Shown piece after piece: positions 39,519-63,785 of a DNA stretch of 64,000 nt. Below the pieces are notes generated by a model. It saw nothing but the letters and a program-made list of their open reading frames with translations. It searched no databases and was not told where the DNA came from. Both the position numbers and the translations under genes were made by a program. Origin of the DNA: Acidobacteriota bacterium (GTDB lineage Bacteria > Acidobacteriota > Terriglobia > 20CM-2-55-15); NCBI GenBank assembly GCA_022821145.1, contig JAJEEE010000033.1, positions 1 to 64,000 on the forward strand, written 5' to 3'. Within the stretch, counting starts at the first letter, position 1. Each line of letters begins with the position of its first letter.

Positions 39519-40256
39519 TCAGTCCGCCCGCACGGCGTCGAGAACGAGCGCCTCGACCCGCGCCCATACTTCCGGGTCGCGGTCCATCTTGGCGTGCGCG
39601 ACGCGTCCGATGGTCTTGAACCATCCCAGGCCGGACAGGTCGATGTCCCGGTTCTCGTAGTCGAACTCGAAGTTGCCGACGATCCGCGTGCGATCCGGAT
39701 CGGCGGCCCGGATCCGGGCTTCGCCCCGGATCAGCATCCCGTTCTGCTGGTGAAGGTTCGCGGCGGCCCGCACGTTGGGCGGGATCTCCTCGTCGCCGAT
39801 GCCGATGCTGTCGACCTGCACGGTCAGCCGCACCGGCACGCCCAACGCGTCCAACTGCCGGGCGAACTTGACGACCGCGGCGCCGCCGAAGCTCTGGCCG
39901 TAAACGATCAGCCGCGCGGAGGCGCGTTCCGCGGTGTCCAGCATCCCGTCCCGGTTCCGGTCCAGCGAGTTGCGGACGAGTTCGACGGCGATGCCGCGCT
40001 TGCGGTTCTCGACGGTCTCGATGTGCACGCCGGCGAGGTTCAGGCCGCGGAGCTTGGCCGCGAGCCGTCCGACGCCCACCTCGCGGTCGTCCCACGCGTC
40101 GCGTCCGCCGAGAAAGCCCAGGATCAGCGTGTCGTCGTCCGCCACGGGCGTCGGCGTCGAGAAGTGGACGTAGCGCTGTCCCCGGGAGGCGCAGCCGACG
40201 GCCAGCAGGCCGGCCAGCACGACGAACGCGAGCCGATGAAGAGTCATCCGGCGCAT
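39519..40256 (-). CDS. Alpha/beta-hydrolase-like lipoprotein
   Basis: 245 aa from the ATG at 40256 (a second ATG is at 40247). The signal peptide ends in a lipobox (LLAVGC), so it is lipid-anchored. ILGFLGGRDAWDD gives an N-terminal strand-loop, and LIVYGQSFGGAAVVKFARQL is a nucleophile elbow (G-x-S-x-G, Ser in GQSFG). The likely catalytic His is less obvious (RVAHAKMD near the end), so the triad is incomplete on inspection. It has an EF-hand-like DRNRDGMLD segment that may bind calcium. It is divergent from the PQQ dehydrogenase gene with 106 bp between. Confidence 0.72.
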   Translation of the reverse strand: MRRMTLHRLAFVVLAGLLAVGCASRGQRYVHFSTPTPVADDDTLILGFLGGRDAWDDREVGVGRLAAKLRGLNLAGVHIETVENRKRGIAVELVRNSLDRNRDGMLDTAERASARLIVYGQSFGGAAVVKFARQLDALGVPVRLTVQVDSIGIGDEEIPPNVRAAANLHQQNGMLIRGEARIRAADPDRTRIVGNFEFDYENRDIDLSGLGWFKTIGRVAHAKMDRDPEVWARVEALVLDAVRAD

Positions 40257-40296
40257 GGAACATGAAACGGTTCGTCGAACGGCCGCGTCAAGGATA

Positions 40297-40302
40297 TATA
40301 GT
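40297..40302 (+). promoter_or_regulatory. Possible -10 of the PQQ dehydrogenase gene
   Basis: TATAGT in an AT-rich patch (GGATATATAGTG) lies 60 bp upstream of the ATG at 40363. A small palindrome GTTCG-T-CGAAC precedes it by about 16 bp. No good -35 is seen. Confidence 0.3.
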
Positions 40303-40362
40303 GTGGCGCGAGCGCGCGCGTCCGTGCGGTCGGGGTGCGCGGTGCCGACAACGGAGCCTTGC

Positions 40363-42066
40363 ATGAAGACCGATCTCGTTTTGACGATGCTGTGCGTGTG
40401 GGTCGTTTCGCCCGCGGCGTGGGCCCAGTCCGAAGAGCGGCCCTGGGAGCCGATCACCGCCGAGCGGTTGCTCGACCCCGAGGACGGCGACTGGATCAGC
40501 TACCGGCGCACGTACGACGCGGTGGGGTTCAGCCCGCTCGATAGTATCAACCGGTCGAACGTCGCGGATCTCCGCCCGGTCTGGGCGTATTCGATGCGGG
40601 ACAACAGCCGGTGGGTGCCGACGCCCATCGTCGCCAACGGCCTGATGTACGTCGCCGAAGGCAGCGGCCGCGTCGTCGCTTTCGATGTCCCGTCGGGCGA
40701 GGTCGCCTGGATCCATCTGCGCACCTATCCCGACGACATCGGCCTGTCCCAGGCCTACAACCGCCACCGGGGCGTTTCCATCCTGGAGGACACCGTCTTC
40801 TGGGGCACGGCCGACTCCCACCTCGTCGCGCTCGACGCGCGGACCGGCGAGCAGTTGTGGGAGGTCCGGACCGGCGACTACACGACCGGGGCGGGTCACA
40901 ACCACCCGCCCCTTGTGGCCGACGGGAAGGTGATCATCGGCTTCACGGGCGGTGACCTGAACGCCCGCGGCGAGGTCGCGGCGTTCGAGACCGAAACGGG
41001 CGACCTGTTGTGGCGGACCTACACCGTGCCCGCCCCCGGCGAGCCGGGGTCGGAGAGCTGGGCCGAGAGCGAGATGCCGCCCCTGGGCGGGGCCACCTGG
41101 GGCACGTTCAGCTACGACCCGGACCTCGGTCTGGTGTACGTGGGCACGGGCCAGCCCGTGCCGTGGGCGACGACGCTGCGCGGCCCCGGCGACGCGTTGT
41201 ACACGAACTCCATACTGGCGCTCGACATCGACACGGGCGAGATCCAGTGGCACTTCCAGGTGGTGCCCGCCGACAACTGGGACATGGACACGCCCTACGA
41301 GAGCATGCTCGTCGACCTGACGATCGACGGCGAAGTCCGGCAGGCGCTGATCGAGACCAGCAAGATCGGTTGGGGCGTGGTGCTGGACCGGGCCACCGGC
41401 GAGTTCCTGCACGCGTTCCGGACCGCCTACGACAACATCGTCACCGAATGGACCGCCGAGGGGCGGCCGGTCTACAACCCCGAGGTGGTCCCGTCGCCCG
41501 AGGACGTGGACTCGGACCGGGTATTCGAGGTCTGCCCGCACCTGCACGGCGCGCGCAACCTGAACTCGCCGAGCTACAGCCCGAGGAACGGCCTGTACTA
41601 CGTCGGGATCAACAACACCTGCATGGACGCGCGTTTCACCGCCGACGAGCCCGGCCGCCGATACGTGGGGATGACGTCCACGCCGAAGCTCGTGCCCGGC
41701 TACGACTACGTCGGCGAGTTCGTCGCCTTCGACCCGGTGCGGGGCGAGCGCGCCTGGGCGTACCGCCCGCCCAGCGGCGCCGCTATGACGGCGGCGGCGC
41801 TGGCCACAAGCGGGGACGTCGTGTTCGGGGGTACCGCGGACCGCTACTTCTTCGCGCTCGACGCCGACACCGGCGAGCGGCTCTGGCAGACGCGCCTGAA
41901 CGGCGACATCTCCGGCGCCCCGGTCACGTTCGAGGTCGACGGACGCCAGTACGTCGCGGTCGCGGCCGGCGGCCGCATCGGCCAGACCACGTCGTTCGCC
42001 ACCCTGACCGGCGTGGACGTCCCGCAGGGCAGCGGCGTGGTGTGGGTGTTCGCGTTGCCGGAGTAG
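40363..42066 (+). CDS. PQQ-dependent dehydrogenase, eight-bladed propeller type
   Basis: 567 aa with a signal peptide (MKTDLVLTMLCVWVVSPAAWA), so periplasmic. GGAG precedes the ATG. Repeated tryptophan-docking blades are visible: ALDARTGEQLWEVRTGD, AFETETGDLLWRTY, ALDIDTGEIQWHFQ and ALDADTGERLWQTRL. The catalytic-base region reads PADNWDMDTP (PNDxWDxD in methanol/ethanol dehydrogenases), and DWISYRRTYDAVGFSPLDSIN is the family's N-terminal block. I see no vicinal Cys pair. The substrate is probably a small alcohol or aldehyde. It is followed after 35 bp by the exported MmgE/PrpD gene, likely co-transcribed. Confidence 0.88.
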   Translation: MKTDLVLTMLCVWVVSPAAWAQSEERPWEPITAERLLDPEDGDWISYRRTYDAVGFSPLDSINRSNVADLRPVWAYSMRDNSRWVPTPIVANGLMYVAEGSGRVVAFDVPSGEVAWIHLRTYPDDIGLSQAYNRHRGVSILEDTVFWGTADSHLVALDARTGEQLWEVRTGDYTTGAGHNHPPLVADGKVIIGFTGGDLNARGEVAAFETETGDLLWRTYTVPAPGEPGSESWAESEMPPLGGATWGTFSYDPDLGLVYVGTGQPVPWATTLRGPGDALYTNSILALDIDTGEIQWHFQVVPADNWDMDTPYESMLVDLTIDGEVRQALIETSKIGWGVVLDRATGEFLHAFRTAYDNIVTEWTAEGRPVYNPEVVPSPEDVDSDRVFEVCPHLHGARNLNSPSYSPRNGLYYVGINNTCMDARFTADEPGRRYVGMTSTPKLVPGYDYVGEFVAFDPVRGERAWAYRPPSGAAMTAAALATSGDVVFGGTADRYFFALDADTGERLWQTRLNGDISGAPVTFEVDGRQYVAVAAGGRIGQTTSFATLTGVDVPQGSGVVWVFALPE

Positions 42067-47737: not shown

Positions 47738-47748
47738 GGCGGCCAGTG

Positions 47749-47988
47749 TCGTGTCACACGAGTTCGTGCGCTTGATTCAACGGATCTGTTTTCTTGGACT
47801 GACGCCTCGGCTCCGCCTCGTTGTCCACCTGCGGCGAGGAACCCCGCGGGTCCGAATAGGCGTTCGATAGTGGATTCCATGACTTGCACCGGCGCATCAC
47901 CCGAATTCGCCGAGACTGCCCCTGCCGACGGTCGATACTCGGGCCGCATGACCGTCGCCGTGTCTTGTCGTGAACAGCGTGACACGAC
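47749..47988. mobile_element. MITE-like element, copy 3, between tctC and tctB
   Basis: The 240-bp unit is bounded by GTCGTGTCAC (47749-47758) and GTGACACGAC (47979-47988). Its core (CTGACGCCTCGGCTCCGCC ... GGCGAGGAA) matches copy 2 closely over its left ~110 bp. The flanks GCCAGT and ACTAGT are alike at 4 of 6 positions, suggesting an old target duplication. There is no transposase ORF. It separates tctC from tctB within an otherwise tightly overlapping operon. Confidence 0.8.
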
Positions 47989-47989
47989 A

Positions 47990-48955
47990 CTAGTCGAGGA
48001 CGCCGGACTCCCGCAGGAACGCCTCGGTGTCGGCCGCGAACGCCTCGATGAACCGGGCGAACTCCGGGCGGGGCATGAAGGCGGGCGACAGCATCGCGCC
48101 GGAGTAGACCTCGCGGTACTCGGGATCTTCCAGAAGGTCCCGAACCGCGCCTTCCCAGGTTTCCACGATGTCCGGCGGCGTGTTCGGCGGTCCCATCAAG
48201 CCGCGGAACTTGGTCACGGCGACGTCGTAGCCGGATTCGCCGACGGTGGGCACCTCCGGCAGACCGGGCAGCCGCGCCTCGCTGAACACGGCGAGCAGGC
48301 GCAGGCGTTCGGCGTCGAGCTGGCCGCGAATCTCCTGGGCCTCGCCGACGCCGATGTCCAGCGTGCCGTTCAGGACGTTGAGGATCAGGTCGCCGCCGCC
48401 GTCGTGGCTGATGATGGCCGCCTCCACGTCCGCCGCCCGCGCAAGGCGCTCCAGCGCCTGCCGCTCCAGCGACCCCGGGGACGCGGCGCCCCACCGGCCC
48501 GCGCCCGTCCGCGCAATCCGCATGACGTCGGCCAGCGTCTCGAACCCGCTTTCGGCGCGGGTGTAGACGACTTCCTGGTCCAGGAATACGTTGACGATCG
48601 GGTCCAGGTCCGCATACGTGTTCGCCGGGCGGCTCATCAGCGACGTGAAGATGAAGCTGGGCGTGGCGGCATAGAACACGCTGCCGTCCGGGGGCGCGTT
48701 GGCCACCCGGCTCATGGCGCGCGCGCCGCCGCCGCCCGTGACGTTCTCCACCACGAAGTCCACGCCCATGCGGGGGCCGAGCCGGCGCGCCATCTCGCGC
48801 AGGAACACGTCGCTCCCGCCGCCGGGGCTGGAATGCGTGACGAGGGTGACGATGGCGTGGGGGTACCCGCCTTCGGCGCCGGGCGGCGCGTCGCCGGCGG
48901 CGCAGCCGGTGGCCAGCGCCGCCAGGATTCCCAGGATCGCCCGCACGCGGTTCAC
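47990..48955 (-). CDS. tctC: Tripartite tricarboxylate transporter substrate-binding protein TctC
   Basis: 321 aa, GTG start at 48955 overlapping the SDR stop by a GTGA quartet. The signal peptide ends in LAALATGC, a lipobox, so this solute receptor is probably lipid-anchored rather than free. The Bug-family landmarks are VTHSSPGGGSDVFLREMARRLG, the phosphate-free carboxylate loop ENVTGGGGARAMSRVANAPPDGSVF, NVFLDQEVVYTRAESGF, LPGLPEVPTVGESGYDV and FRGLMGPPNTP. It captures the carboxylate for TctAB. Its TAG stop lies 1 bp from the end of the inserted MITE. Confidence 0.93.
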   Translation of the reverse strand: MNRVRAILGILAALATGCAAGDAPPGAEGGYPHAIVTLVTHSSPGGGSDVFLREMARRLGPRMGVDFVVENVTGGGGARAMSRVANAPPDGSVFYAATPSFIFTSLMSRPANTYADLDPIVNVFLDQEVVYTRAESGFETLADVMRIARTGAGRWGAASPGSLERQALERLARAADVEAAIISHDGGGDLILNVLNGTLDIGVGEAQEIRGQLDAERLRLLAVFSEARLPGLPEVPTVGESGYDVAVTKFRGLMGPPNTPPDIVETWEGAVRDLLEDPEYREVYSGAMLSPAFMPRPEFARFIEAFAADTEAFLRESGVLD

Positions 48956-49695
48956 GGCATGAAGCGGCCGCCGCTGACGTGGAGCGTCTGGCCGGTGACG
49001 TAGGGTTCGCCGGGGTCGGCCAACGAGAGCACGGCCCGCGCGACGGCTTCGGGGCTGCCGGGGGCGTGGCCGGCCTCGTCCAGGAAGGGAGCCCGCCGCC
49101 CGTCGGGCCGGACGCCGGTGTCGATCGCGCCCGGTACGACGCAGTTGGCCCGGATCCGCCCCAGGCCCTCTTCGGCCAACGCACGGGTCAGGCCGATCAG
49201 TCCGGCCTTGGCCGTGATCACGTGGACGCGCCCGGTTTTCGGGCGATGGGCGCTGAGACCCCCGATGTTGACGATGGCGCCGTTCCGGTCCCGGGGCAGC
49301 CGGCGGAACAACTCTCGCGAGGTCAGGAACGCGCCGGTCAAGGTCACGTCGAGGACCGAGGTCCACGCGGCGCGCGTGGTCGTTTCCAGGGGCTCTTCCG
49401 GGCGGATCGCGGCGTTGTTGACGAGGATGGACACCGGTCCCAGCCGGGCGCCGATCTCGTCGAAGCCGCCCAGGACGGCGGCTTCGTCCTCGACCTTCAC
49501 CAGCATGCCGCAACGTGCGTCCTCGCCGCCGTCGAGTGCGCTCAACGCCGCTTCCAGCGCCTCCGGGTCCGAGGCGCCCCAGATGCACACCCGCGCCCCG
49601 GCGGCGCGGAGCGCGCGCGCGATGGCGAGGCCGATGTTCCGGCTGCCGCCCGTCACCAGGGCCACTTCCGAGCTGAGATCGGTGGGTGGACTCAT
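48952..49695 (-). CDS. Short-chain dehydrogenase/reductase lacking the catalytic Tyr
   Basis: 247 aa from the ATG at 49695. The cofactor loop is VTGGSRNIGLAIARAL (TGxxxxIG) and NNAAI follows the fourth strand. At the active site the usual YxxxK reads VITAK (after GRVH), so the catalytic Tyr is replaced by Val, with a His one position before. The usual Asn of helix 4 is Thr (DVTLTGAF). VVPGAIDTGVRPD and VTGQTLHVSGGRF are normal. It is either a divergent enzyme using His or a non-catalytic binder. It is the first gene of the leftward operon with tctC, divergent from tcuA. Confidence 0.85.
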   Translation of the reverse strand: MSPPTDLSSEVALVTGGSRNIGLAIARALRAAGARVCIWGASDPEALEAALSALDGGEDARCGMLVKVEDEAAVLGGFDEIGARLGPVSILVNNAAIRPEEPLETTTRAAWTSVLDVTLTGAFLTSRELFRRLPRDRNGAIVNIGGLSAHRPKTGRVHVITAKAGLIGLTRALAEEGLGRIRANCVVPGAIDTGVRPDGRRAPFLDEAGHAPGSPEAVARAVLSLADPGEPYVTGQTLHVSGGRFMP

Positions 49696-49754
49696 CTCGA
49701 TGACCGCGCCCGATGTTACCAGACGACATGCGGGTTCGCCCGGAAGCGGTTCGA

Positions 49755-51167
49755 ATGCGAGAATGGCAGGCGATCGTGCCCATCGCACACACATGCGACG
49801 TGGCCGTCGTCGGGGGCGGCAATGCCGGACTGTCGGCGGCCCTGTCGGCGAGCGAGGCCGGCGCGCGCGTGCGTGTCTTCGAGCGCGCGCCGGAGACGTT
49901 CCGCGGCGGAAACAGCCGTCACACGCGCAACATGCGCTGCATGCACGATGCGCCGACCGGTTTCCTCACCGGCGCCTATCCGGCGGAGGAGTACCTTTCG
50001 GACCTGGTCGGCGTGACCGCCGGGCGCACCGACCGGGCACTGGCGCGCCTCGTCATCGGGCAGTCCCTCGAGGCCGCCGCCTGGATGCGGCGCCGCGGGG
50101 TCCGTTTCCAGCCGCCGCTGGAAGGCACGCTCCAGCTTGGACGCACCAACGCGTTCTTTCTGGGCGGCGGGAGGGCGTTGTTGAACGCGTACTATCGCGA
50201 GGCCCGGCGCCGGAATATCGAAGTGTTGTACGACGCCGAGGTCGTCGGGATGGACATCTCCGGCGGGAGGGTCGATGGCGTTGCGGTCGTTCACGAGGGT
50301 CGCCGTCTGGACGTTCGACCGAAAGCGCTCGTCGCGGCGTCCGGCGGTTTCGAGGCCAACCTGGACTGGCTCGGCCAGGTCTGGGGCGAGGCGGCCGGCA
50401 ACTTCAAGGTGCGCGGCTCGCCGTTCAACACGGGGCGGCTGCTCCGCGTCCTCCTCGACCACGGCGCCGAACCGGCCGGCGAGCCGGGCGAATGTCACGC
50501 CGTGGCCGTCGACGCGCGGGCGCCCCGCTTCGACGGGGGCATCGTCACGCGGTTGGACAGCCTGCCGCTGGGCATCGTCGTGAACAACCGCGCCCAACGC
50601 TTCCACGACGAGGGCGAGGACTGGTGGCCGAAGCGTTACGCGACCTGGGGCCAGTTGATCGCGCGGCAACCGGATCAGATCGCATGGTCCATCATCGACT
50701 CCAAGGTGGTGGGCCGCTTCATGCCGTCCGTGTTCCCGCCGATCCGGGCCGACTCCATCGGCGAACTGGCCGCCCGGCTGGGTCTGCCCGTCGACGCGCT
50801 CGAGGCAACGGCGGCGCGGTTCAACCGGTCGGTCGTGGCGGGCCGTTTCGATCACCGGGCGCTGGACGACTGCCGGACCGAGGGCCTTCAGCCTCCCAAG
50901 TCGCACTGGGCGCAGGCGCTGGACCGGCCGCCGTTCTTCGGCTATCCGCTGCGTCCGGGCATCACGTTCACCTACCTCGGCGTGGGCGTGAACGATCGGG
51001 CCGCGGTTCGTTTCGAGGGCGGACGGATCAGCCCGAACGTCTTCGCCGCGGGAGAGATCATGGCGGGCAACATCCTGGGCCGGGGCTACCTCGGCGGCCT
51101 GGGCATGACGATCGGCACGGTGTTCGGCCGGATCGCCGGACGGGAGGCCGCGCGTGCCGCCGCCTGA
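49755..51167 (+). CDS. tcuA: FAD-dependent tricarballylate dehydrogenase TcuA-like
   Basis: 470 aa from the ATG at 49755; an upstream ATG at 49713 would add 14 residues and cannot be excluded. The dinucleotide fold is CDVAVVGGGNAGLSAALSA with VFERAPETFRGGNSRHTRNMRC, typical of TcuA. The fumarate-reductase-like capping domain follows (GGGRALLNAYYREA). The C-terminal FAD contact is FAAGEIMAGNILGRGYLGGLGMTIGTVFGRIAG. TcuA oxidises tricarballylate to cis-aconitate. The next gene is its electron-transfer partner TcuB, overlapping by 14 bp; the Tct transporter lies divergently. Confidence 0.9.
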   Translation: MREWQAIVPIAHTCDVAVVGGGNAGLSAALSASEAGARVRVFERAPETFRGGNSRHTRNMRCMHDAPTGFLTGAYPAEEYLSDLVGVTAGRTDRALARLVIGQSLEAAAWMRRRGVRFQPPLEGTLQLGRTNAFFLGGGRALLNAYYREARRRNIEVLYDAEVVGMDISGGRVDGVAVVHEGRRLDVRPKALVAASGGFEANLDWLGQVWGEAAGNFKVRGSPFNTGRLLRVLLDHGAEPAGEPGECHAVAVDARAPRFDGGIVTRLDSLPLGIVVNNRAQRFHDEGEDWWPKRYATWGQLIARQPDQIAWSIIDSKVVGRFMPSVFPPIRADSIGELAARLGLPVDALEATAARFNRSVVAGRFDHRALDDCRTEGLQPPKSHWAQALDRPPFFGYPLRPGITFTYLGVGVNDRAAVRFEGGRISPNVFAAGEIMAGNILGRGYLGGLGMTIGTVFGRIAGREAARAAA

Positions 51168-52416
51168 TCCAGCCGCCGAGAGCGGGGCCGTCGCCGAGGG
51201 CGGGATCGTCGCCGAGGGCGCGCGGATCATGACGATCTGCAACGCGTGCCGCTATTGCGAGGGCTTCTGCCCGGTGTTTCCGGCGATGGAGCGCCGGAGG
51301 GTCTTCCTCGAAGCCGACATGAACTACCTGGCGAACCTGTGCCACAACTGCGGCGAGTGCTTCCACGCGTGCCCGTACACGCCGCCTCACGCCTTCGAGG
51401 TCAACGTGCCGCGGACGCTGGCCGAAATCCGCGCCCGGTCCTACGGCCGGTACGCGTGGCCGCGGGCTCTCGGACGTGCGTTCGAAAACAACGGCACGCT
51501 CATGGCGTCGATCCTCGCGCTGAGCCTGCTGCTGGCGGTGGCGAGCGGCGCGGCGACGGGCCGCATGCTGGCGCCCGCCGGCGCCGTCTTCTACGACGTG
51601 ATGCCCCATGGCGTGATGGTGGGCGTCTTCGGCACGGCCTTCGCGGCCGCCGCCGCCATCCTGGCCGTGGGCTTGGTGCGGTGCGTGCGGGAGTCCGGCC
51701 CGAACGCGGCGCAGTTGGCGCGCCCGGCCGTTTTGTGGAAGGCCGCGCGCGACGCCCTGAGCCTCCGTCACCTGGATTCGGGCGGCCGCGGCTGCGCTTC
51801 GCCCGACGAGCGTCCGAGCCCGGCCCGAAGACTGTGGCACCATTGCACCTTCTACGGCTGCCTGCTGTGCTTCGCGTCCACGGTCGTGGCCGCCGTCTAC
51901 CACTACGGAGGCTCGACGGCGCCGTACGACTACCTCAGCCTGCCGGTCGTCCTGGGCACGCTGGGCGGCGTCGGGCTGCTGATCGGCCCGGCGGGCCTGT
52001 ATCGCCTGCGCCGGCGGCGCGATCCGGCCGTCGGCGACCCCGCGCAAGACGGTATGGACCAGGCTTTCCTCGCGATGCTGTTCCTGACGAGTGCGACCGG
52101 CCTGATGCTGCTGGTATTCCGGGAGACTCGGGCGATGGCGCCGTTGCTGTGGGTTCACCTCGGCGTGGTCCTGGCGCTGTTCCTGGCGCTGCCGTACGGG
52201 AAGTTCGTCCATGGCGTCTATCGCTTCGCGGCGCTCCTTCGATACGGCCTCGAATCGGAATCCGACGCATCCACGCGATCCGCGCCGCGTTTGGGTGGCG
52301 CCGGGCCGCCGCTCGTGGCACAATCCCGACGAAACCGAGCGGATTCCCGCGAAACGTCTCGCGGTCCGGACCAAGGAGAAGATCATGTGCGACGAAAAGA
52401 CCGTGAGGGACAATGA
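51154..52416 (+). CDS. tcuB: Tricarballylate utilisation 4Fe-4S/membrane protein TcuB-like
   Basis: 420 aa, GTG start overlapping tcuA by 14 bp. Two cluster motifs lie at the N-terminus: CNACRYCEGFCPVFP (~29-43) and CHNCGECFHACPYTPP (~63-78). About six hydrophobic helices follow, with candidate heme or quinone-site His residues (MPHGVMVG, WHHCTFYG, VYHYGG, WVHLG). TcuB reoxidises TcuA's FADH2 by passing electrons to the quinone pool. The C-terminal ~50 residues are charged and disordered-looking, and the last 32 bp overlap the next gene, which suggests the native stop may have been lost. Confidence 0.9.
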   Translation: MPPPDPAAESGAVAEGGIVAEGARIMTICNACRYCEGFCPVFPAMERRRVFLEADMNYLANLCHNCGECFHACPYTPPHAFEVNVPRTLAEIRARSYGRYAWPRALGRAFENNGTLMASILALSLLLAVASGAATGRMLAPAGAVFYDVMPHGVMVGVFGTAFAAAAAILAVGLVRCVRESGPNAAQLARPAVLWKAARDALSLRHLDSGGRGCASPDERPSPARRLWHHCTFYGCLLCFASTVVAAVYHYGGSTAPYDYLSLPVVLGTLGGVGLLIGPAGLYRLRRRRDPAVGDPAQDGMDQAFLAMLFLTSATGLMLLVFRETRAMAPLLWVHLGVVLALFLALPYGKFVHGVYRFAALLRYGLESESDASTRSAPRLGGAGPPLVAQSRRNRADSRETSRGPDQGEDHVRRKDREGQ

Positions 52417-53263: not shown

Positions 53264-54607
53264 TTACTCGGCGTGCGACGCCGCGATGGCCTCCAGGCGC
53301 GCGTCGATCTCGGCGCCGGGATGCCATCGGCCGGCGACCATCACGCCGTCCGGTGCGCGGATGGCGCCGAGGTCGTCGAGCGGGTTGGCCTCCAGCAGGA
53401 TCAGGTCCGCGCGCTGACCCTCGGCGATCGTGCCGAACGCGTCCTCGTTCCCGAAATACTCCCCGACGCTGCGTGTTCCGGAAACGATCACCTCGTAGGG
53501 CGACATCCCGGCCGCGACCATCCGCTCCATCTCGCGGTGGATCGAGAACCCGGGGACGCTGAACACCTGGGGCGCGTCCGTGCCCAGCAGGATGCGGGCG
53601 CCCGAGGCGTGCAGCGCCTCGAGGATGCGCATCCGGTTGGCGATCTGGCGTTCGGCGGCGCCGGCGTCGAACGCGTCCCCCGATCGCACCGACTCGACCC
53701 GGGCGGACCACTGCGCCACGGTCTCGGGCGGCATGTAGCGGGATTCCTCGTAACCCTGGACCGTTTCCAGCGGCAGCGTCCCGCGCAGGGCCTCCCATAG
53801 GGCCATCGTCGGCACGGCCCAGGCGCCGGCCTCGATCGTCCGGCCGACGATGTCCTCCAGGCGGGCCTCGTCGACGACGCCGTCGTCCCCCACGACGTAG
53901 GCCTCGTATCCGTCCAGGTGCTCGAAGGTTTCCTGGCCCGCGTCGATGGCGTGCGCGATTCCGACCTCGGCGGGCACGTGGCCGCCGAAACGGATGCCTT
54001 CCTCGCGGGCGGTCTCGGCCATCGCGTCAAAGGTAGCCACGTCGAGCCCGCCCTGGACCTTCAGCAGATGCCACCCCGCGGCCGCCTGGTCGCGGACGCG
54101 CTGGACGGCCTCCTCGGGCGTCGCCACCGAGTTGCCGCTGAAGCCGGGCCCGGCCAGGTAGAGGTTCGGACCCGCAACGGCGCCGCTGTCGACTTCCGCG
54201 CGCAGGTCCAACTGTCCGTCGCCGCCCTGCATGCCCCGCACGGTGGTCACGCCGTTGGCGACGTACAGGAAGAGAACGTCTTCGGTAAGCTGCCGCGGCG
54301 AGTCCGCCCTGGGGACGTGCCCGTGCATCTCGGCCAGTCCGGGCATCAGGTAGCGGCCATCGCCCTCGACGACGGCCGCGCCGTCCGGGACGTCGGTCTC
54401 GCCGACCGGACCGACCGCGACGATCCGGTCGCCCGAGACCAGGACGGTCTGGTCGTTGACGACGCGCTCCGAGTCCATGGGTATGACGGTGACGCCGACG
54501 AACGCCGTCACGGGATCGACGTCGGGCGCCGGCGCCGGGTCCATCGGCGCGCATGACGCGACGGCCGCGGCGGCCGCGATCGGAAGAATGCGGAACGGGT
54601 TCTTCAT
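53264..54607 (-). CDS. Exported amidohydrolase (lipoprotein)
   Basis: 447 aa. The signal peptide MKNPFRILPIAAAAAVASC ends in a lipobox-like AVASC. Metal ligands of the amidohydrolase superfamily are present: HGH in MPGLAEMHGHV, the bridging Lys in WHLLKVQGG, His in RFGGHVP, His in TFEHLDG and the catalytic Asp in RILLGTDAP. The beta-sandwich closes with GTIAEGQRADLILLEANP. It resembles imidazolonepropionase/prolidase-like exported members; it likely cleaves cyclic amides or dipeptides. A strong hairpin (54621-54660) sits 14 bp before its ATG and separates it from the selenoprotein gene. Confidence 0.92.
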   Translation of the reverse strand: MKNPFRILPIAAAAAVASCAPMDPAPAPDVDPVTAFVGVTVIPMDSERVVNDQTVLVSGDRIVAVGPVGETDVPDGAAVVEGDGRYLMPGLAEMHGHVPRADSPRQLTEDVLFLYVANGVTTVRGMQGGDGQLDLRAEVDSGAVAGPNLYLAGPGFSGNSVATPEEAVQRVRDQAAAGWHLLKVQGGLDVATFDAMAETAREEGIRFGGHVPAEVGIAHAIDAGQETFEHLDGYEAYVVGDDGVVDEARLEDIVGRTIEAGAWAVPTMALWEALRGTLPLETVQGYEESRYMPPETVAQWSARVESVRSGDAFDAGAAERQIANRMRILEALHASGARILLGTDAPQVFSVPGFSIHREMERMVAAGMSPYEVIVSGTRSVGEYFGNEDAFGTIAEGQRADLILLEANPLDDLGAIRAPDGVMVAGRWHPGAEIDARLEAIAASHAE

Positions 54608-54696: not shown

Positions 54697-56424
54697 CTAT
54701 CTCCAGTCGTCGACGCGAACGCTGCGGGAGTAGCCGCACTCGTTCACGCTCCAGCGAATGTTCCCGCTGCCGCCCACGACGACCACCTCGACGTTCTGGA
54801 GGTAGGGGATCGGGGCGTCGTCGGGCAGCGTCAGCCAGGTGGCGTATGGCTCGCGGCCGGCGCGCGCCGGACCGAGCCGGTAGTTGATGACCTCCTGGTC
54901 GAGCCAGTAGTGGTACTTGGGAGTCGTCACGTTGGTCTCGACCCAGTCGATGAGCTTCTCCTTGGTGTCGAACCCGAACCGCAGGAACGGTCCGGTCACG
55001 GCCGGATCCACCAGGAGCAGCTTGCTGCTCCGTTGCGGCGGTCCGACGCCGCCGATGAAGCGCTTGAGCACCCACTCCCAGTCCTCGTCCCGGAGGACCA
55101 TCATCGTGTTCTGGCTTTGGCATCCCGAGAAGGTCGATATGACGCTCTCGCCGGCGTTGAACCCCTTCTGCACGTGGAGGGGGTCCCAACCGTCCGGCAG
55201 GCCCTCGACGTTCTCGGCGAACACCGCGGGCACCGTGCTCATCGGGTTGCCCTGGACGCCCATGTAGGTGTGGCCGGGGCGCGAGCCGCCGGTGACGTTC
55301 GACGACAACAGCCCCCACGACCGGCCGATCAGCGTTCCGGCGTTGTTGTACGGGCCGAGCGCGCCGGTCCCGGAGTTCAACTGCAGCTCGTCGACGATCG
55401 GGCCGTTGGCGACGGCCATGCCCGCCATCGACGACGTCGAGCTGGAGCGCGCGTTGGTCTGCGACGCGGCCAGCGCCAGGATGGCGGGGAAATACTCGGG
55501 CTTGGCGCCGGCCATCACGGCGTTGATGGCGACGGTCTCGACCGTGTACTCCCATGCCTCGCGCACGCCGGTCACGCGCATCCGGCCGATGATCTCGTCG
55601 CGCGGATGCGACGTCCGGGCCAGCATCTCGTCGACGCGCTCCTCGGTGGGCATCACGATCGGCATCTGGTCGCTCCAGAACCGGTCGTCGAAGTACTGCT
55701 GAATGTTCGCCTGCGTGTCGGGTCCGATCAATCGCTGCCTGGGCCGCTCATACGGTCCGGTCTTCGTTTCCTCGTCGTTCAGCGGCCGCGTCAGGTGACC
55801 GATGATCTCCTCCATGAGCGGCTGATGGGTCACCGGATCGAGCCCGGCGACGTATTCGGCCAGCTCGGCCGGCGTCTTGCCGCCCACCGGGGTGGGCGTG
55901 AACGCCAGGCGCAGGGCCGGCATGCCCTCCTCGACCGCCTTGTCGCGGACCAGGTCGGCGAGCGCGTCGACGATGACGCCGACCGCGGGCACTCCATACT
56001 CGCGTTCGATTCTGGCAACGTGGCCGACGACCGCCGGCGCACAGGTGCTTCAATGGCCGATGGCCATGATCATCATGCCGCCGACGGACTGGATCTCCCT
56101 CCAGAGCTCCGGATCGTCGGCGGTATAGATGCCGCGCTTGATTCGGAATTCCGTCTCGACGTCCGGCATGTTCACGGCCATCCACTTCTGCATCTCCTGC
56201 AGGAAGAGGTCCCCGCCGTTGAACGTCACGTCGACCAGGTAGATCGTCGCCCCGTCCAGGGTGTCCGGGCGTGGGGCCATGGCGCTGCGCTCGATGACGG
56301 GCGCGATCCCGGTCGGGTTCAACACCGTGTAGAGCGGTTCGTCCGAAGAGCCCTGCGCCGCCAAGCCCGTCGCCGCCAGCGCCAGCGCCAGACCCGCGCC
56401 GCCGCCGAGTCGTATCCACTTCAT
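54697..56424 (-). CDS. Exported UxxC selenoprotein (UGA read as selenocysteine)
   Basis: 575 aa when the single in-frame TGA (56050-56052) is read as Sec125. The ATG at 56424 follows GGAGGG, and a signal peptide (MKWIRLGGGAGLALALAAT) leads the protein. The segment before the TGA (DTLDGATIYLVDVTFNGGD, EIQSVGGMMIMAIGH) and after it (STCAPAVVGHVARIEREYGV) is one continuous fold in the same frame. The motif becomes H-Sec-S-T-Cys, a Sec-x-x-Cys redox pair with Cys128. It resembles the UGSC-type (seleno)protein family by recall. The ~430-residue part after Sec ends in NECGYSRSV. A bulged GGUC-loop hairpin follows the UGA. It is divergent from a thioredoxin-fold operon. Gene callers would report a 124-aa and a ~431-aa ORF. 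Confidence 0.85.
56019..56043 (-). promoter_or_regulatory. Candidate bacterial SECIS hairpin
   Basis: In the mRNA the stem UGUG-(bulged C)-GCCGGC pairs with GUCGGC-CACG around the apical loop GGUC: ten pairs, two of them wobble, one bulge. The loop begins 18 nt after the UGA. E. coli fdhF SECIS, as I recall it, also has a GGUC apical loop, a single bulged base and a loop start 19 nt after UGA. SelB-type elongation factors read such loops. Confidence 0.75.
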
Positions 56425-56563: not shown

Positions 56564-57049
56564 ATGAAGCAGACACGGGGCAAGCCGGCCTGGGCCCGTC
56601 CGGCCGCGGTTTTCGCGGCGTGCGTCCTGGCCTCGGGCGCGGGCTTCGCGCAGGAAGGCGAGTTCATCGACGGCGAGTTCGTCGAGTTCTTCGAGTACGT
56701 TCCCGACTTCATGCCGCCGGACGAGCTGTTGGGTCTCATCGAGGCGGGTTCCGAGGACATCGTCATCGTCGACACGGCGGCCGAACTGATCTGGGAGGAG
56801 GAGCGCATCCCCGGATCCGTCAACTATCCGTGGGTGCACGAGCTGGCGCTTCCGGTCACGCTCCCGCGCGACAAGACGCTGGTGGTCTACTGCGCGTGCA
56901 ACGATCACGAGGACTCCGTCGACATCGCCCAGAAACTGAGCTTCGCCGGCTACCTGGACGTGAAGGTGCTCGAGGGGGGCTGGTTCAAGTGGCTGGACCT
57001 GGAGTACCCGATCGAAGGCGCCGCGTTCGAGGAGGTCTCGACGCAATGA
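56564..57049 (+). CDS. Exported rhodanese-like sulfurtransferase
   Basis: 161 aa. A signal peptide (residues ~1-29, ending GAGFAQ) suggests a periplasmic protein. The single rhodanese domain has DIVIVDTAAELIWEEERIPGSVNYPW, the domain's DxR/IPGA-like block, and the active-site loop YCACNDHEDS with catalytic Cys in CACNDHE. The C-terminal VLEGGWFKWLDLEYPIE is typical. It would carry persulfide sulfur or act as a thiol-redox protein. Its stop overlaps the start of the next gene (ATGA), and three redox genes form one operon facing the selenoprotein. Confidence 0.88.
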   Translation: MKQTRGKPAWARPAAVFAACVLASGAGFAQEGEFIDGEFVEFFEYVPDFMPPDELLGLIEAGSEDIVIVDTAAELIWEEERIPGSVNYPWVHELALPVTLPRDKTLVVYCACNDHEDSVDIAQKLSFAGYLDVKVLEGGWFKWLDLEYPIEGAAFEEVSTQ

Positions 57050-57603
57050 CGGCCCGGACGAGGACGCTTCCCCTGGCCGGCGTGGCGGTGTGGCTGCTCG
57101 CGGGCGCGCCGGCCCTGGCCCAGAGCGAAATCTCCGGTCTGGACGTCGGCGCGCCGACGCTTTCGATTCCCGTCCTGGACGTCACGGGCGAGTACCAGGG
57201 CCGGCCGATCTGCTACGTCTGCGAGTTTCAGGACGATCCGAACGTCCTGGGGTTCTTCCGCGACGCCGGCGAGGACACGGCCGAGCTGATCGTGCGGCTC
57301 AACGACCTGTACGTCGAGCACAAGGATCGGGGCTTCAAGGCGGTGGCCATGGTCGTGGCCGGCGAAGAGGCCGCCCCGTGGCTCGAGGAACTGAACCGGA
57401 CCGAGGACATCGAGATTCCCCTGACCGTGTTCAGGCGCGGCCCGAGGGATGTCGCAGCGCGGCTGTACGAGTTGAACCTCGACGTCCGGAACACGTTCTT
57501 CGTCACCGTCGACCGCTTCGTCCGGGCCAACGTGGCCGACATCGGCCCCGGGGAGTGGGACCGGGTCGCCGACGCGACGGCGGCCATGCTGGCTGCCCCA
57601 TGA
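57046..57603 (+). CDS. Exported thioredoxin-fold protein with CxxC
   Basis: 185 aa with a signal peptide (LPLAGVAVWLLAGAPALA). The mature start IPVLDVTGEYQGRPICYVCEF holds a C-Y-V-C pair at the first strand-helix turn, where thioredoxins have CxxC. FKAVAMVVAGEEAAPWLEEL and NTFFVTVDRFVRANV correspond to later strands of a redoxin fold. The usual cis-Pro is probably IEIPLTVF. It overlaps the rhodanese stop and the next TlpA gene by ATGA junctions, so all three are made together. It is likely a periplasmic disulfide or persulfide exchange protein. Confidence 0.78.
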   Translation: MTARTRTLPLAGVAVWLLAGAPALAQSEISGLDVGAPTLSIPVLDVTGEYQGRPICYVCEFQDDPNVLGFFRDAGEDTAELIVRLNDLYVEHKDRGFKAVAMVVAGEEAAPWLEELNRTEDIEIPLTVFRRGPRDVAARLYELNLDVRNTFFVTVDRFVRANVADIGPGEWDRVADATAAMLAAP

Positions 57604-58106
57604 CGCACATCCGCCGCGCGCTGGCCGGCGTCCTCGTCGCATGCCTGGCGGGGGCCGGGGCGGCCGCGCAGTCCGACGGCATTCCGGTCGTTACCGCCGA
57701 CGAGGTGCACGCGCTCATCGCCGCGCGCGCGGGCAAAGTCGTCGTCGTGAACTTCTGGGCCAGTTGGTGTCCGCCCTGCGTCGAGGAATTCCCCGATCTG
57801 ATCCGGTTCCACCGCGACTACGAGCCGCGGGGATCGGAGGTGCTGGCGGTCTCGATGAACGCCGAGGACGAGCTCGACGACGTCGCCGAGTTCCTCGACG
57901 ACTTCGAGACGCCCTTCACGGTCGTCCGCGCCGCCAGCCAGGAGCTGCCCTTCCTCCAGGCGATCGACGAGAACTGGTTCGGCGAGATGCCCACCACCCT
58001 GATCTTCGACGCCGCGGGCGCCCCGGTTCACATGTACAAGCGCCAGGTCCACTACGACGAGCTGGCCGCCGACGTCACCCCCCTGCTGCCGGACGCGGGC
58101 CCGTAG
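57600..58106 (+). CDS. TlpA/ResA-like thioredoxin
   Basis: 168 aa with a signal peptide (ALAGVLVACLAGAGAAA). The active site is VVVNFWASWCPPCVEEFPDLI (WCPPC at ~72-76) and the cis-Pro loop is GEMPTTLIFD. This is a periplasmic disulfide reductase of the TlpA/ResA class, often used for cytochrome c or copper-site maturation. Here it is the third gene of the rhodanese operon and may reduce the divergent selenoprotein or its partners. The last 75 bp are partly duplicated downstream (58145-58220). Confidence 0.92.
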   Translation: MTHIRRALAGVLVACLAGAGAAAQSDGIPVVTADEVHALIAARAGKVVVVNFWASWCPPCVEEFPDLIRFHRDYEPRGSEVLAVSMNAEDELDDVAEFLDDFETPFTVVRAASQELPFLQAIDENWFGEMPTTLIFDAAGAPVHMYKRQVHYDELAADVTPLLPDAGP

Positions 58107-58220: not shown

Positions 58221-58288
58221 TGCTTTCCCTCCGACATGTGCTCGCTGGATTGACGACGCCATCAGTTCGACACGGTGCCGGATTCGAC

Positions 58289-58309
58289 GTACACACGAAT
58301 AGTGTGTAC
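58289..58309. promoter_or_regulatory. Palindromic operator of the RHH/MazF operon
   Basis: GTACACAC (58289-58296) and GTGTGTAC (58302-58309) are perfect inverted arms with a 5-bp spacer, 35 bp upstream of the antitoxin ATG. Ribbon-helix-helix antitoxins bind such repeats to repress their own operon. Confidence 0.65.
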
Positions 58310-58343
58310 CATCGGAACATGCCCTTGGCGTGGAGGTCAGCTT

Positions 58344-58586
58344 ATGAGGCGGATCAACGTCACCCTTCCTGAGGAGACCATCCGTTTGATGAATCGAGTC
58401 GCGGGCAAGGGACAACGCAGTCGCCTCGTGGACCGGGCCGTTCGACAGTACGTCCAGAGTCTTGGCCGTGCTCAGTTGAGCCGGGCGCTCGAGACAGGCG
58501 CGCAGGACCGGGCCGATCGCGATCTCGACCTCGTGGCCGAGTGGTTCGATCTTGACCGGGAGGCATGGCCGTCGAACGCACGATAG
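58344..58586 (+). CDS. Ribbon-helix-helix antitoxin
   Basis: 80 aa from the ATG at 58344, with GGAGG upstream. MRRINVTLPEETIRLMNRVAG is the beta-strand and first helix of a CopG/MetJ-type ribbon-helix-helix. GQRSRLVDRAVRQYVQ is the second helix. The C-terminal helix (DRDLDLVAEWFDLDREAW) is rich in acidic and aromatic residues and should wrap the toxin. It overlaps the MazF-like toxin gene by 22 bp. A palindrome just upstream is its likely operator. Confidence 0.88.
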   Translation: MRRINVTLPEETIRLMNRVAGKGQRSRLVDRAVRQYVQSLGRAQLSRALETGAQDRADRDLDLVAEWFDLDREAWPSNAR

Positions 58587-58936
58587 ACCGACCCTGTCGG
58601 GGCGACGTCTATCTGGTCAATTTCGATCCGACGCTGGGCGCTGAGATTCGAAAGACGCGTCCAGCCCTGATCTTGCAGAACGACATCGCCAACCGGCACA
58701 GCCCGATCACGATCGTGGCGGCCCTGACTTCGAAGGTCGACGAGAAGCTGTATCCAACCGAGGTTCTCGTGAAGGCCCGCGAGGGTGGCCTCGCATCCGA
58801 CTCGGCAGTCCTGCTGAACCAGATTCGCTCGATCGACCGGCGGCGGCTCGTGAAGAGGTTGGGCAAGCTGCGGACGGAAACAATGGCGAACGTCGACCGA
58901 GCCCTGCGGATCAGCTTGGGGCTGATGGAAATCTAG
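58565..58936 (+). CDS. MazF/PemK-family endoribonuclease toxin
   Basis: 123 aa. PCRGDVYLVNFDPTLGAEIRKTRPALIL is the MazF opening with the catalytic Arg region, ITIVAALTSKVD holds the conserved TS, and SDSAVLLNQIRSIDRRRLVKRLGKL the C-terminal half with Q-I-R. It is a sequence-specific mRNA interferase. It overlaps the RHH antitoxin gene and belongs to a different branch from the MazF at 37098. Confidence 0.93.
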   Translation: MAVERTIDRPCRGDVYLVNFDPTLGAEIRKTRPALILQNDIANRHSPITIVAALTSKVDEKLYPTEVLVKAREGGLASDSAVLLNQIRSIDRRRLVKRLGKLRTETMANVDRALRISLGLMEI

Positions 58937-60628: not shown

Positions 60629-61249
60629 ATGCGGTGTCTCGTGACGCTATGGATCGGGGTCCTCCTGGCCGCTCCGGCCGGGTTGGCGCAGGAACAATCC
60701 GTCGGCGGCGCATTGGACTACGAGGTGCGCGCCCCGGAGAACCTGTTCTTCGGCACGGGCGTCTCGAGCGGCGGGCCGTACTACGACGTTCCGATCACGG
60801 AGCTTCCCACCGAGGGCGTCCTGATCAAGCTGCCCTACACGCAGAAGGGCGGGCAGCTGACGTTCGACGTCCACCACCGAGTCGGCCTGTCCGACGACTT
60901 CGGCTTGCCGGCCGAGATCATGACCGTCGTCGAGGTCATGACCGGAGGGACCAACCGCTTGGGCATCTATACGCTTCTGGACCAGATCGGACAGGACGCG
61001 GCCGCGGTCGAACCCATCGAACGCGCGAGCGACGTCGAGATCGATCGTTACGTCAGCCCGCTGTCGGTCAAGACGATCTCGATCAACACCGAGCCCGGCC
61101 CCCAGTCCATCAGCGTCGTCGGCCGGGACCTGAACGTCACGCGTTCCGGGCGGACCACGCGCGTCGACACGCCGGGCACACGGATCGCGATGATCTCGAA
61201 CATCCGGTTCGAGGAAATCCGCGAGGGCACGCCGCTCTCGTTCGACTGA
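60629..61249 (+). CDS. Secreted hypothetical protein
   Basis: 206 aa. GGGGAGGTTGCG is immediately upstream of the ATG. The signal peptide (MRCLVTLWIGVLLAAPAGLA) is clean. The mature protein is beta-rich and acidic (APENLFFGTGVSSGG, LIKLPYTQKGGQLTFDVHH, VEVMTGGTNRLGIYTLLDQIG, SISVVGRDLNVTRSG), with no Cys after the leader. I do not recognise a family. A TGCTAATAT promoter-like element lies 34 bp upstream. It is convergent with the glycosyltransferase gene. Confidence 0.75.
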   Translation: MRCLVTLWIGVLLAAPAGLAQEQSVGGALDYEVRAPENLFFGTGVSSGGPYYDVPITELPTEGVLIKLPYTQKGGQLTFDVHHRVGLSDDFGLPAEIMTVVEVMTGGTNRLGIYTLLDQIGQDAAAVEPIERASDVEIDRYVSPLSVKTISINTEPGPQSISVVGRDLNVTRSGRTTRVDTPGTRIAMISNIRFEEIREGTPLSFD

Positions 61250-61278
61250 GTCGCGCGAGGCCGCGGAAAGGGGGCGGA

Positions 61279-62406
61279 TCAGCGGCCCGCCGCCGACTCG
61301 TACGCCTTCCGGACCTTCTCGGCCGCCGTCTTCCACGAGTACCGGGCGACGCGGCCGGTCCCCTTTTCGACCATGGCCCGGCGCAGGTCCGCGTCGTCGA
61401 GGAGCCGCTTCATCGCGCGCGCGATCTCGAACACGTTCTCGGGATTGACCAGTAGCGCGGCGTCTCCCAGCACTTCCGGCAACGACGCCGCGTTGGAGGC
61501 GACCACGGGCGTGCCGTTCGCCATCGCTTCGAGAGGGGCGAGCCCGAAGCCCTCGTAGAGCGAGGGCAGGGCGAAAAGCATCGCCGCCTCGTAGAACACC
61601 TGCAGCGCGGGTCCGGGAACCGTGCCCAGGAACCGGACATCCCCCTGCACCCCGCTGCGTACGGCCGTCGACCGCAGGTGCGGGTGGCGGCTGACCCCTT
61701 CGCCGATGATGATCAGCTTCAGGTTCCTGAAGTCCGCGTCGTCCCGGACTTCGTTCTGCAGCACCGCAAAGGCCTCGATCAACCGGTGAATGTTCTTGTG
61801 GGGCTTGATCTGTCCGGCGTACAGGATGAACGGCGACTTGAGCTGGTACCGTTCCAGGACGTGCTGCTGTTCGCCGGCGTCATGGCGGTGCGTGAAGCGG
61901 CCGTCGAGCGCGTTGTGGATCACGCGCGATTTTCCCGGTTCCATGTCGAAGATGTTGACCAGGTCCTTCCGCGTCGACGCCGAGACCGCGATCACGCAGT
62001 CGGCCCGCCCGACGACGTGCCGCGTATACAGGTATCGGCGGTAGTTCTCGAACTTGGACGAGCCCTGTGGCGGAAACAGCAGGTGAACGCAGTCGTGGAT
62101 GGTCACCGTCAACCGCGACGGCACCCACACCGGCGCCCGGTAGTGAGGGACGTGGAAGACCTGGATGCCGTGCCTCCGGAGGCGCCAGGGAATGCGCACG
62201 TGCAGGTTCCAGAAACCGTTGTCGTCGGGAATGTCGATTCGAGCGAAGTTGGCGGCTAACGGCCCGAGCTCCAGGAAGTGCCGCCGGGAACCGAGGAGGA
62301 AATACTCGTTGTCGTTGTCGATGTTCGAAAGGTTGCGGACGAGGTTCCAGATGTGTGTGCCGATGCCGAACTCGTGGACTCTCCGGATGTCGATCGCGAC
62401 GCGCAT
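61279..62406 (-). CDS. Family 4 (GT-B) glycosyltransferase
   Basis: 375 aa. The N-terminal acceptor domain has IDIRRVHEFGIGTHIWNLVRNL with the glycine-rich loop and VFHVPHYRAPVWVPSRLTVTIHD. The C-terminal nucleotide-sugar domain has FILYAGQIKPHKNIHRLIEAF and the EX7E motif EGFGLAPLEAMANGTPVVAS. It transfers a sugar, probably to a cell-surface polysaccharide or lipid; donor and acceptor are unknown. It is a single gene between a hypothetical and the nfeD operon, divergent from the latter. Confidence 0.92.
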   Translation of the reverse strand: MRVAIDIRRVHEFGIGTHIWNLVRNLSNIDNDNEYFLLGSRRHFLELGPLAANFARIDIPDDNGFWNLHVRIPWRLRRHGIQVFHVPHYRAPVWVPSRLTVTIHDCVHLLFPPQGSSKFENYRRYLYTRHVVGRADCVIAVSASTRKDLVNIFDMEPGKSRVIHNALDGRFTHRHDAGEQQHVLERYQLKSPFILYAGQIKPHKNIHRLIEAFAVLQNEVRDDADFRNLKLIIIGEGVSRHPHLRSTAVRSGVQGDVRFLGTVPGPALQVFYEAAMLFALPSLYEGFGLAPLEAMANGTPVVASNAASLPEVLGDAALLVNPENVFEIARAMKRLLDDADLRRAMVEKGTGRVARYSWKTAAEKVRKAYESAAGR

Positions 62407-62456
62407 GCTTCAGGGCGGGGCTTCATCACGGGTTCCTAGAATATCCGCCCCGGATT

Positions 62457-62464
62457 GCTATAAT
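62457..62464 (+). promoter_or_regulatory. Extended -10 promoter of the nfeD operon
   Basis: TGC-TATAAT, a near-perfect extended -10, ends 7 bp before the ATG at 62472. Transcription would start at or within a few bases of the start codon, so the mRNA may be leaderless. Confidence 0.55.
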
Positions 62465-62471
62465 CAACACC

Positions 62472-63785
62472 ATGATGCTGGCAGGCCGGAGACCCCTCCC
62501 GCGCCTCTCCGCGGCGGCCTTGGCCGTCTGCGCCTTACCGCTCGCGGCGAACGCCCAGACGCCGACGCTGCTGCAAGTGGAGCTGGCCGACGTTATCCAC
62601 CCGGTCAGCGCCGAATACCTCGACGAGGCATTGGCCTACGCCGGGGAAATCGACGCCGCGGCCGTCGTGATTCGACTGGACACCCCCGGCGGGCTGGTCG
62701 ATTCGATGCGCGCCATGGTCGAGTCGATTCTGGCGTCGGAGGTTCCGGTGGCGGTCTGGGTCGGTCCCAGCGGCGTACGCGCCGCCTCGGCCGGTTTCTT
62801 CATTCTCCTGTCCGGCGACCTGGCGCTCATGGCGTCGGGGACCAACACCGGCGCGGCCCATCCCGTGTCCTCGTTCGGGGCCGAAATCGGCGAGGTCATG
62901 GAAGAGAAGATCGTCAATGACGTGGCGGCGTTTCTGCGGAGCTACGTCGCCCGGCGCGGCCGGAATCCGGAAGAAGCCGAGCTGGCCGTGACCGAAAGCA
63001 AGTCGTTAACGGCGGAGGAGGCGCTCGAGGAAGGCTTCATCGACGCGGTCGTGGCCGGCGTCCCCGAGTTGATCGAAATGTTCGACAACGCCGAGATCAC
63101 CCGATTCGACGGCCGCGTCGAGACGCTCGCCCTCGAGGGCGCCGCCGTGGAGGTCTACGAGATGAACGCCCGGCAGCGGTTGCTGTCGGCGATCATGAAC
63201 CCCAACATCGCGCTGGTCCTGGGAGTCGTCGGACTGTTGGGGTTGTACATGGAGATCACCAATCCCGGACTGATCTTTCCGGGCGTCATCGGGGGGATCA
63301 GCCTCGTCCTGGCGCTGTTCGCGTTCAACCTGCTTCCGACCAACCTGACCGGCGTTCTGCTGATCGTGCTGGCGATCGGGCTGTTCGTCGTGGAGGCGAC
63401 CGTGCCCAGCGGGGGCATACTGGCGCTGGGCGGGGCGGCGGCCCTGATCTTCGGCGGGCTGATGCTGGTCCAGGGCCCGATTCCCGAGCTCCAGATGCAG
63501 TGGGCGCCCGTCGTGGCCATCGCGCTGTCGCTCGCCTTCATCACCGTGTTCCTCGTCCGCCTGGTGTTGATCGCGCACCGGAAGAAAGCCGTCACGGGGC
63601 GCCGGGGGTTGATCGGCGAGATCGGAACCGCGTCAACGAAAGTGCACCGGGACGGAAAGGTGATGGTGCACGGAGAATACTGGGGCGCCCGGTCGCCGCA
63701 ACCCATCGAGCCCGGCGCCCGGGTGCGCGTCGTCGGGATGGACGGCCTCAGCATCGAGGTCGAACCCGTCCGTGAGGAGATCTGA
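62472..63785 (+). CDS. NfeD family ClpP-like membrane serine protease
   Basis: 437 aa from the ATG at 62472 (a second ATG follows at once). A signal peptide is followed by the ClpP/SppA-like domain: [43 protein letters not shown] (nucleophile Ser in ASAGFF) and the Lys base in [18 protein letters not shown]. Four to five membrane helices follow (~225-365), then the C-terminal OB-fold ([20 protein letters not shown] ... [18 protein letters not shown]). It degrades or processes membrane proteins with its stomatin partner. Its TGA shares one base with the next gene's ATG. Confidence 0.93.

Follow-up and report, generated by a model that had tools for sequence, protein, structure and literature searches.

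A predicted exported selenoprotein joining a UGSC domain to an uncharacterised domain, encoded beside thioredoxin-type genes in an Acidobacteriota genome

Structure of the Locus and the In-Frame UGA

On the minus strand of the window (the whole stretch of 64,000 nucleotides that was analysed), a frame of 575 codons (54697..56424) extends from ATG at 56424, which is preceded by a GGAGG ribosome site, to TAG at 54697, and its sole interruption is the TGA at 56050..56052 (codon 125), the putative selenocysteine codon (Sec125), which is followed by Cys128 in the motif U-S-T-C. Standard gene finding yields two separate ORFs here, which the initial annotation had regarded as a single frame parted solely by this TGA and containing a Sec-x-x-Cys motif, and this description was found to be correct. 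Divergently from the selenoprotein gene, on the plus strand, three genes encode a rhodanese-domain protein (56564..57049), a redoxin-like protein with the motif CYVC and no Pfam match (57046..57603), and a TlpA/AhpC-type thioredoxin-like protein with the motif WCPPC (57600..58106). All three products have signal-like leaders, and the genes form an operon in which each start overlaps the preceding stop (ATGA). Downstream of the selenoprotein gene, on the minus strand, is a gene encoding an amidohydrolase with a lipoprotein-like N-terminus (53264..54607).

Homologues were searched for in one genome per species (84,980 species), which yielded 49 sequences, full length for the most part, from Acidobacteriota, Gemmatimonadota, Pseudomonadota, Chloroflexota, Rokuibacteriota, Poribacteria, Latescibacterota, and other phyla. 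Codon 125 was TGA in 46 of the 49 homologues and a Leu codon in the other three (L066, L069, and L073), with Cys at this position in none of them; the protein similarity spanning the TGA, on which the initial annotation had relied, was thereby traced to 46 loci. Judged by these alignments, the two ORFs are one gene, which would encode a single selenoprotein. That a true stop or a sequencing error splits a dead gene, as the two ORFs listed by the gene finder might suggest, has practically no probability and is refuted by the recurrence of the TGA at the same codon in the 46 loci and in a 96% identical gene of a same-genus genome; third-base conservation in the SECIS element also speaks against it (see below). 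The motifs in relatives included U-S-S-C, U-S-A-C, U-G-G-C, and U-S-G-C, and the three Leu homologues had LDTC at the site of Sec125, with the downstream Cys retained. SelB was present in the genomes of two of these three, so that loss of selenocysteine decoding does not explain the Leu codon, and these proteins must either function without selenocysteine or do something else.

The source genome (4.18 Mb, 99% complete) contained selA (545 bits), selB (380 bits), and selD (360 bits), all above the cut-offs, together with a tRNA-Sec (75 bits) with the anticodon UCA (ARAGORN), that is, all the sel genes that the initial annotation had named. Other genes of the window are terminated by TGA, which indicates that UGA is an ordinary stop here. 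Decoding of the UGA as another amino acid, such as Trp, or plain readthrough would agree with a sole fact, namely, the frame being open beyond the UGA, and its probability is negligible in view of the termination of other genes by TGA, the complete selenocysteine machinery, the conserved SECIS-type hairpin, and the previous recognition of UGSC proteins as a selenocysteine family. Among the 24 homologue-bearing genomes tested, 20 had SelB above the cut-off; among the four that remain are two small assemblies, one with a fragmented SelB match, as well as the genome of the Leu homologue L069.

The SECIS Hairpin

Immediately 3′ of the UGA, the minus-strand transcript of 56019..56043 can form a hairpin of 10 bp with one bulged C and a GGUC loop (56029..56032), which begins with the 18th nucleotide 3′ of the UGA. 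This structure is present as described in the initial annotation; the conserved core, however, is smaller and consists of the 4-bp upper stem and the GGUC loop (56025..56036), which were kept in 29–30 of 30 sequences, with G-U, G-C, and A-U alternating at one of the four pairs. The lower stem varied among clades, being unpaired at one pair in 14 of the 30 sequences, and the full 10-bp stem is therefore particular to close relatives. Compared with shuffled sequence, the hairpin had no significantly different folding energy (z = −0.86). The folding check thus recovered the described structure but no energetic distinction, and the case for a SECIS element rests on conservation. In Rfam scans of the window, no family reached the gathering score and no SECIS model matched.

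Third-base entropy was assessed in 95 codon columns of fourfold-degenerate residues from 28 Sec homologues. Codons 130–133 (CCG GCG GTC GTC/GCC), which correspond to the loop and upper stem, had an entropy of zero, ranked 1–4 among the 95 columns, and were the sole ones with an invariant third base, whereas the next lowest value was 0.62 and the median was 1.49. In the two Leu homologues checked for this pattern, it was lost (GTG and GTT at codon 132). This invariance is strong comparative evidence for a SECIS element under selection. The bulge of the E. coli fdhF SECIS is located 4 bp below the loop; the hairpin of the window shares with it the GGUC apical loop, the 4-bp upper stem, and the close position to the UGA but differs in having the bulge 6 bp below the loop.

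Domain Structure of the Predicted Protein

The N-terminal domain (residues 33–195; 55840..56328, minus strand) matched Pfam UGSC (PF24696) with 82.3 bits (cut-off 25) over model positions 1–162 of 172, i.e., approximately the whole model, with Sec at the motif position and a SECIS-type hairpin downstream. The NCBIfam model NF041046 gave 59.2 bits, which is under its equivalog cut-off of 125, and would therefore not name this protein; according to these scores, the protein is assigned to the wider UGSC family and not to the NF041046 equivalog group. It differs from the proteins described by both models in the U-S-T-C motif, the literal U-G-S-C being absent, as well as in an extra domain of 350 residues and in its predicted export. 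UGSC is a known selenoprotein family that is abundant in ocean samples, and its members rank among the most abundant selenoproteins of aquatic metagenomes (PMC2398784); a literature search for the function of UGSC proteins found no paper. In the 2008 Global Ocean Sampling study, UGSC was reported as fused to a conserved domain of unknown function, Unknown_1 (PMC2398784, Figure S1A), and that fusion probably has the same architecture as the window protein. The main text of that study mentions neither export nor the gene neighbourhood of the fusion (PMC2398784).

In the confident AlphaFold model of the whole protein (pLDDT 87, pTM 0.85), the UGSC domain had an alternating beta/alpha, doubly wound arrangement and not the thioredoxin topology, with Sec125 in a loop between the strand 117–123 and the helix 128–143. 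Foldseek comparison of the whole model with the PDB returned flavodoxin-like matches for this domain; no match reached E below 0.001, and none of the 50 best was a thioredoxin. A profile search of the whole protein against PDB sequences gave nothing convincing. A likely Trx-like fold was suggested for UGSC proteins in 2008 (PMC2398784); the model indicates that this is probably wrong for the window protein.

The C-terminal domain (residues 222–575; 54700..55761, minus strand) matched no model of Pfam or NCBIfam, and single scans of 37 members revealed no consistent Pfam match for it. The initial annotation was right about the joined product of 575 amino acids but left this second, uncharacterised domain of about 350 residues unmentioned. 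Modelled alone, the domain was likewise predicted confidently (pLDDT 86, pTM 0.87); Foldseek found no match to it in the PDB at E below 0.001, and a profile search against PDB sequences gave nothing convincing. Its best Foldseek matches, class I fumarate hydratase and Toblerone-fold cyclic amide hydrolases, had TM-scores of about 0.2 and were rejected as fortuitous or, at most, worth keeping as a lead.

Same-class genomes have the fusion split into two directly adjacent genes: one encodes UGSC alone and contains its own TGA, in U-G-S-C-T-T-C, and in the product of the other a thioredoxin-like domain (Redoxin, CPTC motif) precedes the C-terminal domain. Thus, the stand-alone UGSC members of relatives neighbour the very domain that is fused to UGSC in the window protein, and recombination among a thioredoxin fold, the C-terminal domain, and the selenocysteine-bearing UGSC domain is a classical sign of working together. 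A role of the C-terminal domain in substrate binding is a guess. Overall, the decoding and the domain structure proposed for the window protein are strongly supported by the sequence comparisons.

Export and Gene Neighbourhood

The predicted N-terminal signal peptide MKWIRLGGGAGLALALAATGLAAQ (56352..56424, minus strand) is of the Sec type, without twin Arg, and consists of a hydrophobic stretch that ends Ala-rich. Leaders, assessed by hydrophobicity only, were detected at the same place, although with different letters, in all 12 members of the clade of the window protein (support 100/100), as well as in a second clade of three; leaders were also found in the same-class clade, members of which occur up to four times in one genome, and there they look twin-arginine-like (NRRKMLSLLG). 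The branch that includes Chloroflexota, Rokuibacteriota, and others lacks leaders, and its Chloroflexota and Rokuibacteriota proteins begin near residue 30. When placed on the tree, the export label changed only three times, which is why export is regarded as an old and stable property. Export of the window protein, and with it the extracytoplasmic selenoprotein proposed in the initial annotation, is well supported by the clade-wide conservation of predicted leaders. The start could be misassigned or the leader could be a mere membrane anchor, with the protein being cytoplasmic as in the leaderless Chloroflexota and Rokuibacteriota homologues; this is very unlikely given the strong ribosome site before the ATG at 56424, the position of the hydrophobic leaders throughout the clade, and the leaders on the neighbouring proteins.

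In the same class (L133–L135; G044, G117, G181, G231, G237, and G243), up to four exported fusion selenoprotein paralogues per genome were observed, some of them in tandem. One paralogue (L099/L135) had the motif U-D-G-C, and the L133 copies adjoin PQQ-type dehydrogenases and a cytochrome c-like gene. Several exported copies have PQQ-type dehydrogenases nearby, and the window itself contains one (40255..42066).

The rhodanese and redoxin-like genes adjoin the homologue in records L025/L074, L026, L028, L029, L030, and L034, which are assigned to Acidobacteriota, Gemmatimonadota, and Pseudomonadota. The TlpA-like gene was found at the same loci except for L026, the match at L034 being weak. Signal-less homologues had no such neighbourhood of rhodanese, redoxin-like, and TlpA-type genes. 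The amidohydrolase gene was seen in same-genus relatives only and is, for this reason, probably outside the system; the nearer remaining neighbours in the window were likewise common to same-genus relatives only.

Relationship to the GrdB Family

A stand-alone UGSC protein gave weak matches to the selenocysteine region of GrdF (E = 0.0015) and of GrdB (E = 0.0067). In a profile–profile comparison, the UGSC domain of the fusion matched a GrdB-like family with E = 1.9 × 10−7, a probability of 94%, and a score of 53.5, with Sec aligned on Sec, whereas 100 block-shuffled controls scored at most 26.7 and the reversed profile 16.5; when the Sec and Cys columns were masked, the score was 35.9. The window protein gave no match to PF07355 (GrdB/PrdB), and no pyruvoyl-bearing partner (GrdE/PrdA) was found among the nine neighbours scanned with Pfam. 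On this profile evidence, the UGSC domain is taken to be a distant relative of the selenocysteine region of glycine reductase GrdB. The likeness to GrdB/PrdB (PF07355, TIGR01917; selenocysteine subunits of glycine and D-proline reductases) is a distant homology around UxxC, and the window protein differs from these subunits in its predicted export and its different second domain.

Genes for short GrdB-like proteins that contain a TGA in frame, mostly as U-P-x-C (L104–L117), are widespread in the phylum, and PF07355 covers the proteins only up to the selenocysteine codon. The source genome itself contains at least two further genes with in-frame TGA, which are adjacent on contig C9 at about 61000–63500 (L132) and encode a peroxiredoxin (T-P-V-U) and a GrdB-like protein (U-P-L-C).

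Proposed Function

GrdB-type enzymes cleave C-N bonds by means of their selenocysteine and are re-reduced by thioredoxin. The gene of the window probably encodes one exported selenoprotein acting as an extracytoplasmic, thioredoxin- or thiol-coupled selenocysteine reductase that is served by the neighbouring TlpA-type thioredoxin. SelB and tRNA-Sec would decode the UGA as selenocysteine at the hairpin just 3′ of the codon, and the signal peptide would direct export of the protein through the inner membrane. In the UGSC domain, Sec125 would be exposed at the end of a strand, beside Cys128, with the former as the nucleophile or redox residue and the latter as its resolving partner. The selenolate would probably attack a substrate that the C-terminal domain helps to hold, and the resulting Se-S bridge or seleno-adduct could be resolved via Cys128, after which the TlpA-type thioredoxin would re-reduce the enzyme, as thioredoxin does for GrdB-type reductases. 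We infer this catalytic cycle and the partnership with thioredoxin from homology, synteny, and domain fusion.

A thioredoxin-like thiol-disulfide role was suggested for UGSC proteins in 2008 (PMC2398784), and, accordingly, the exported protein might act on protein disulfides or peroxides, as a thiol-disulfide exchanger or a repair enzyme, and not as a small-molecule reductase. Although the UxxC motif and the thioredoxin and rhodanese neighbours agree with such a role, the alternating beta/alpha domain of the AlphaFold model, with flavodoxin-like matches and no thioredoxin in the best 50, and the profile similarity to GrdB argue against it, and we regard it as possible but not likely. For the reductase favoured here, a more specific form can be proposed, in which, in Acidobacteriota, Pseudomonadota, and Gemmatimonadota, an extracytoplasmic GrdB-like selenocysteine domain, a counterpart of the glycine/proline reductase selenoproteins, would reductively cleave a small molecule at a C-N, C-S, or C-halogen bond, the molecule being held by the domain of undescribed fold and the electrons being supplied by a dedicated TlpA-type thioredoxin. 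This form is unlikely; extracytoplasmic reductive cleavage of a small molecule is a reasonable guess, though one of low probability, owing to the selenocysteine chemistry of GrdB-type enzymes and to the link between C-F cleavage of fluoroacetate and GrdB-like genes (PMC10838667).

The UGSC selenoprotein family and, as reported in 2008, the fusion of UGSC to an unknown domain were already known (PMC2398784). The present analysis bears out all the main points of the initial annotation and adds the old exported fusion lineage with signal peptides, its exported rhodanese, redoxin-like, and TlpA-type thioredoxin neighbours in several phyla, the split fusion in relatives, where the C-terminal domain is joined to a thioredoxin domain instead, the distant kinship of UGSC with GrdB, and a UGSC domain predicted without the thioredoxin fold. 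A lineage of selenoproteins with clear signs of export, of which some same-class relatives have as many as four copies in one genome, is thus added, and its fusion genes are cut at the UGA by automatic annotation. Since this lineage offers a partner domain and a partner gene of the thioredoxin type, both conserved, as well as a connection with the known chemistry of GrdB, its function can be tested with a few purified proteins, and the neighbourhood and distant kinship provide the first testable idea of what that function is.

The more distant neighbours suggest no substrate, since the genes for the tricarboxylate transporter, MmgE/PrpD, amidohydrolase, and FAD and Fe-S proteins were not conserved beside the selenoprotein gene in other phyla. 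At 44408–49184 and 49713–52416 of the window, the translations indicate tripartite tricarboxylate transporter-like and MmgE/PrpD-like proteins beside a pair of FAD and Fe-S proteins resembling TcuA/TcuB (FAD domain identified by Pfam), which together are possibly a cluster for tricarboxylate uptake and breakdown. At 58275–58936, a small ORF with a ribbon-helix-helix-like translation overlaps an ORF with a MazF/PemK-like translation, which represents a possible toxin–antitoxin pair.
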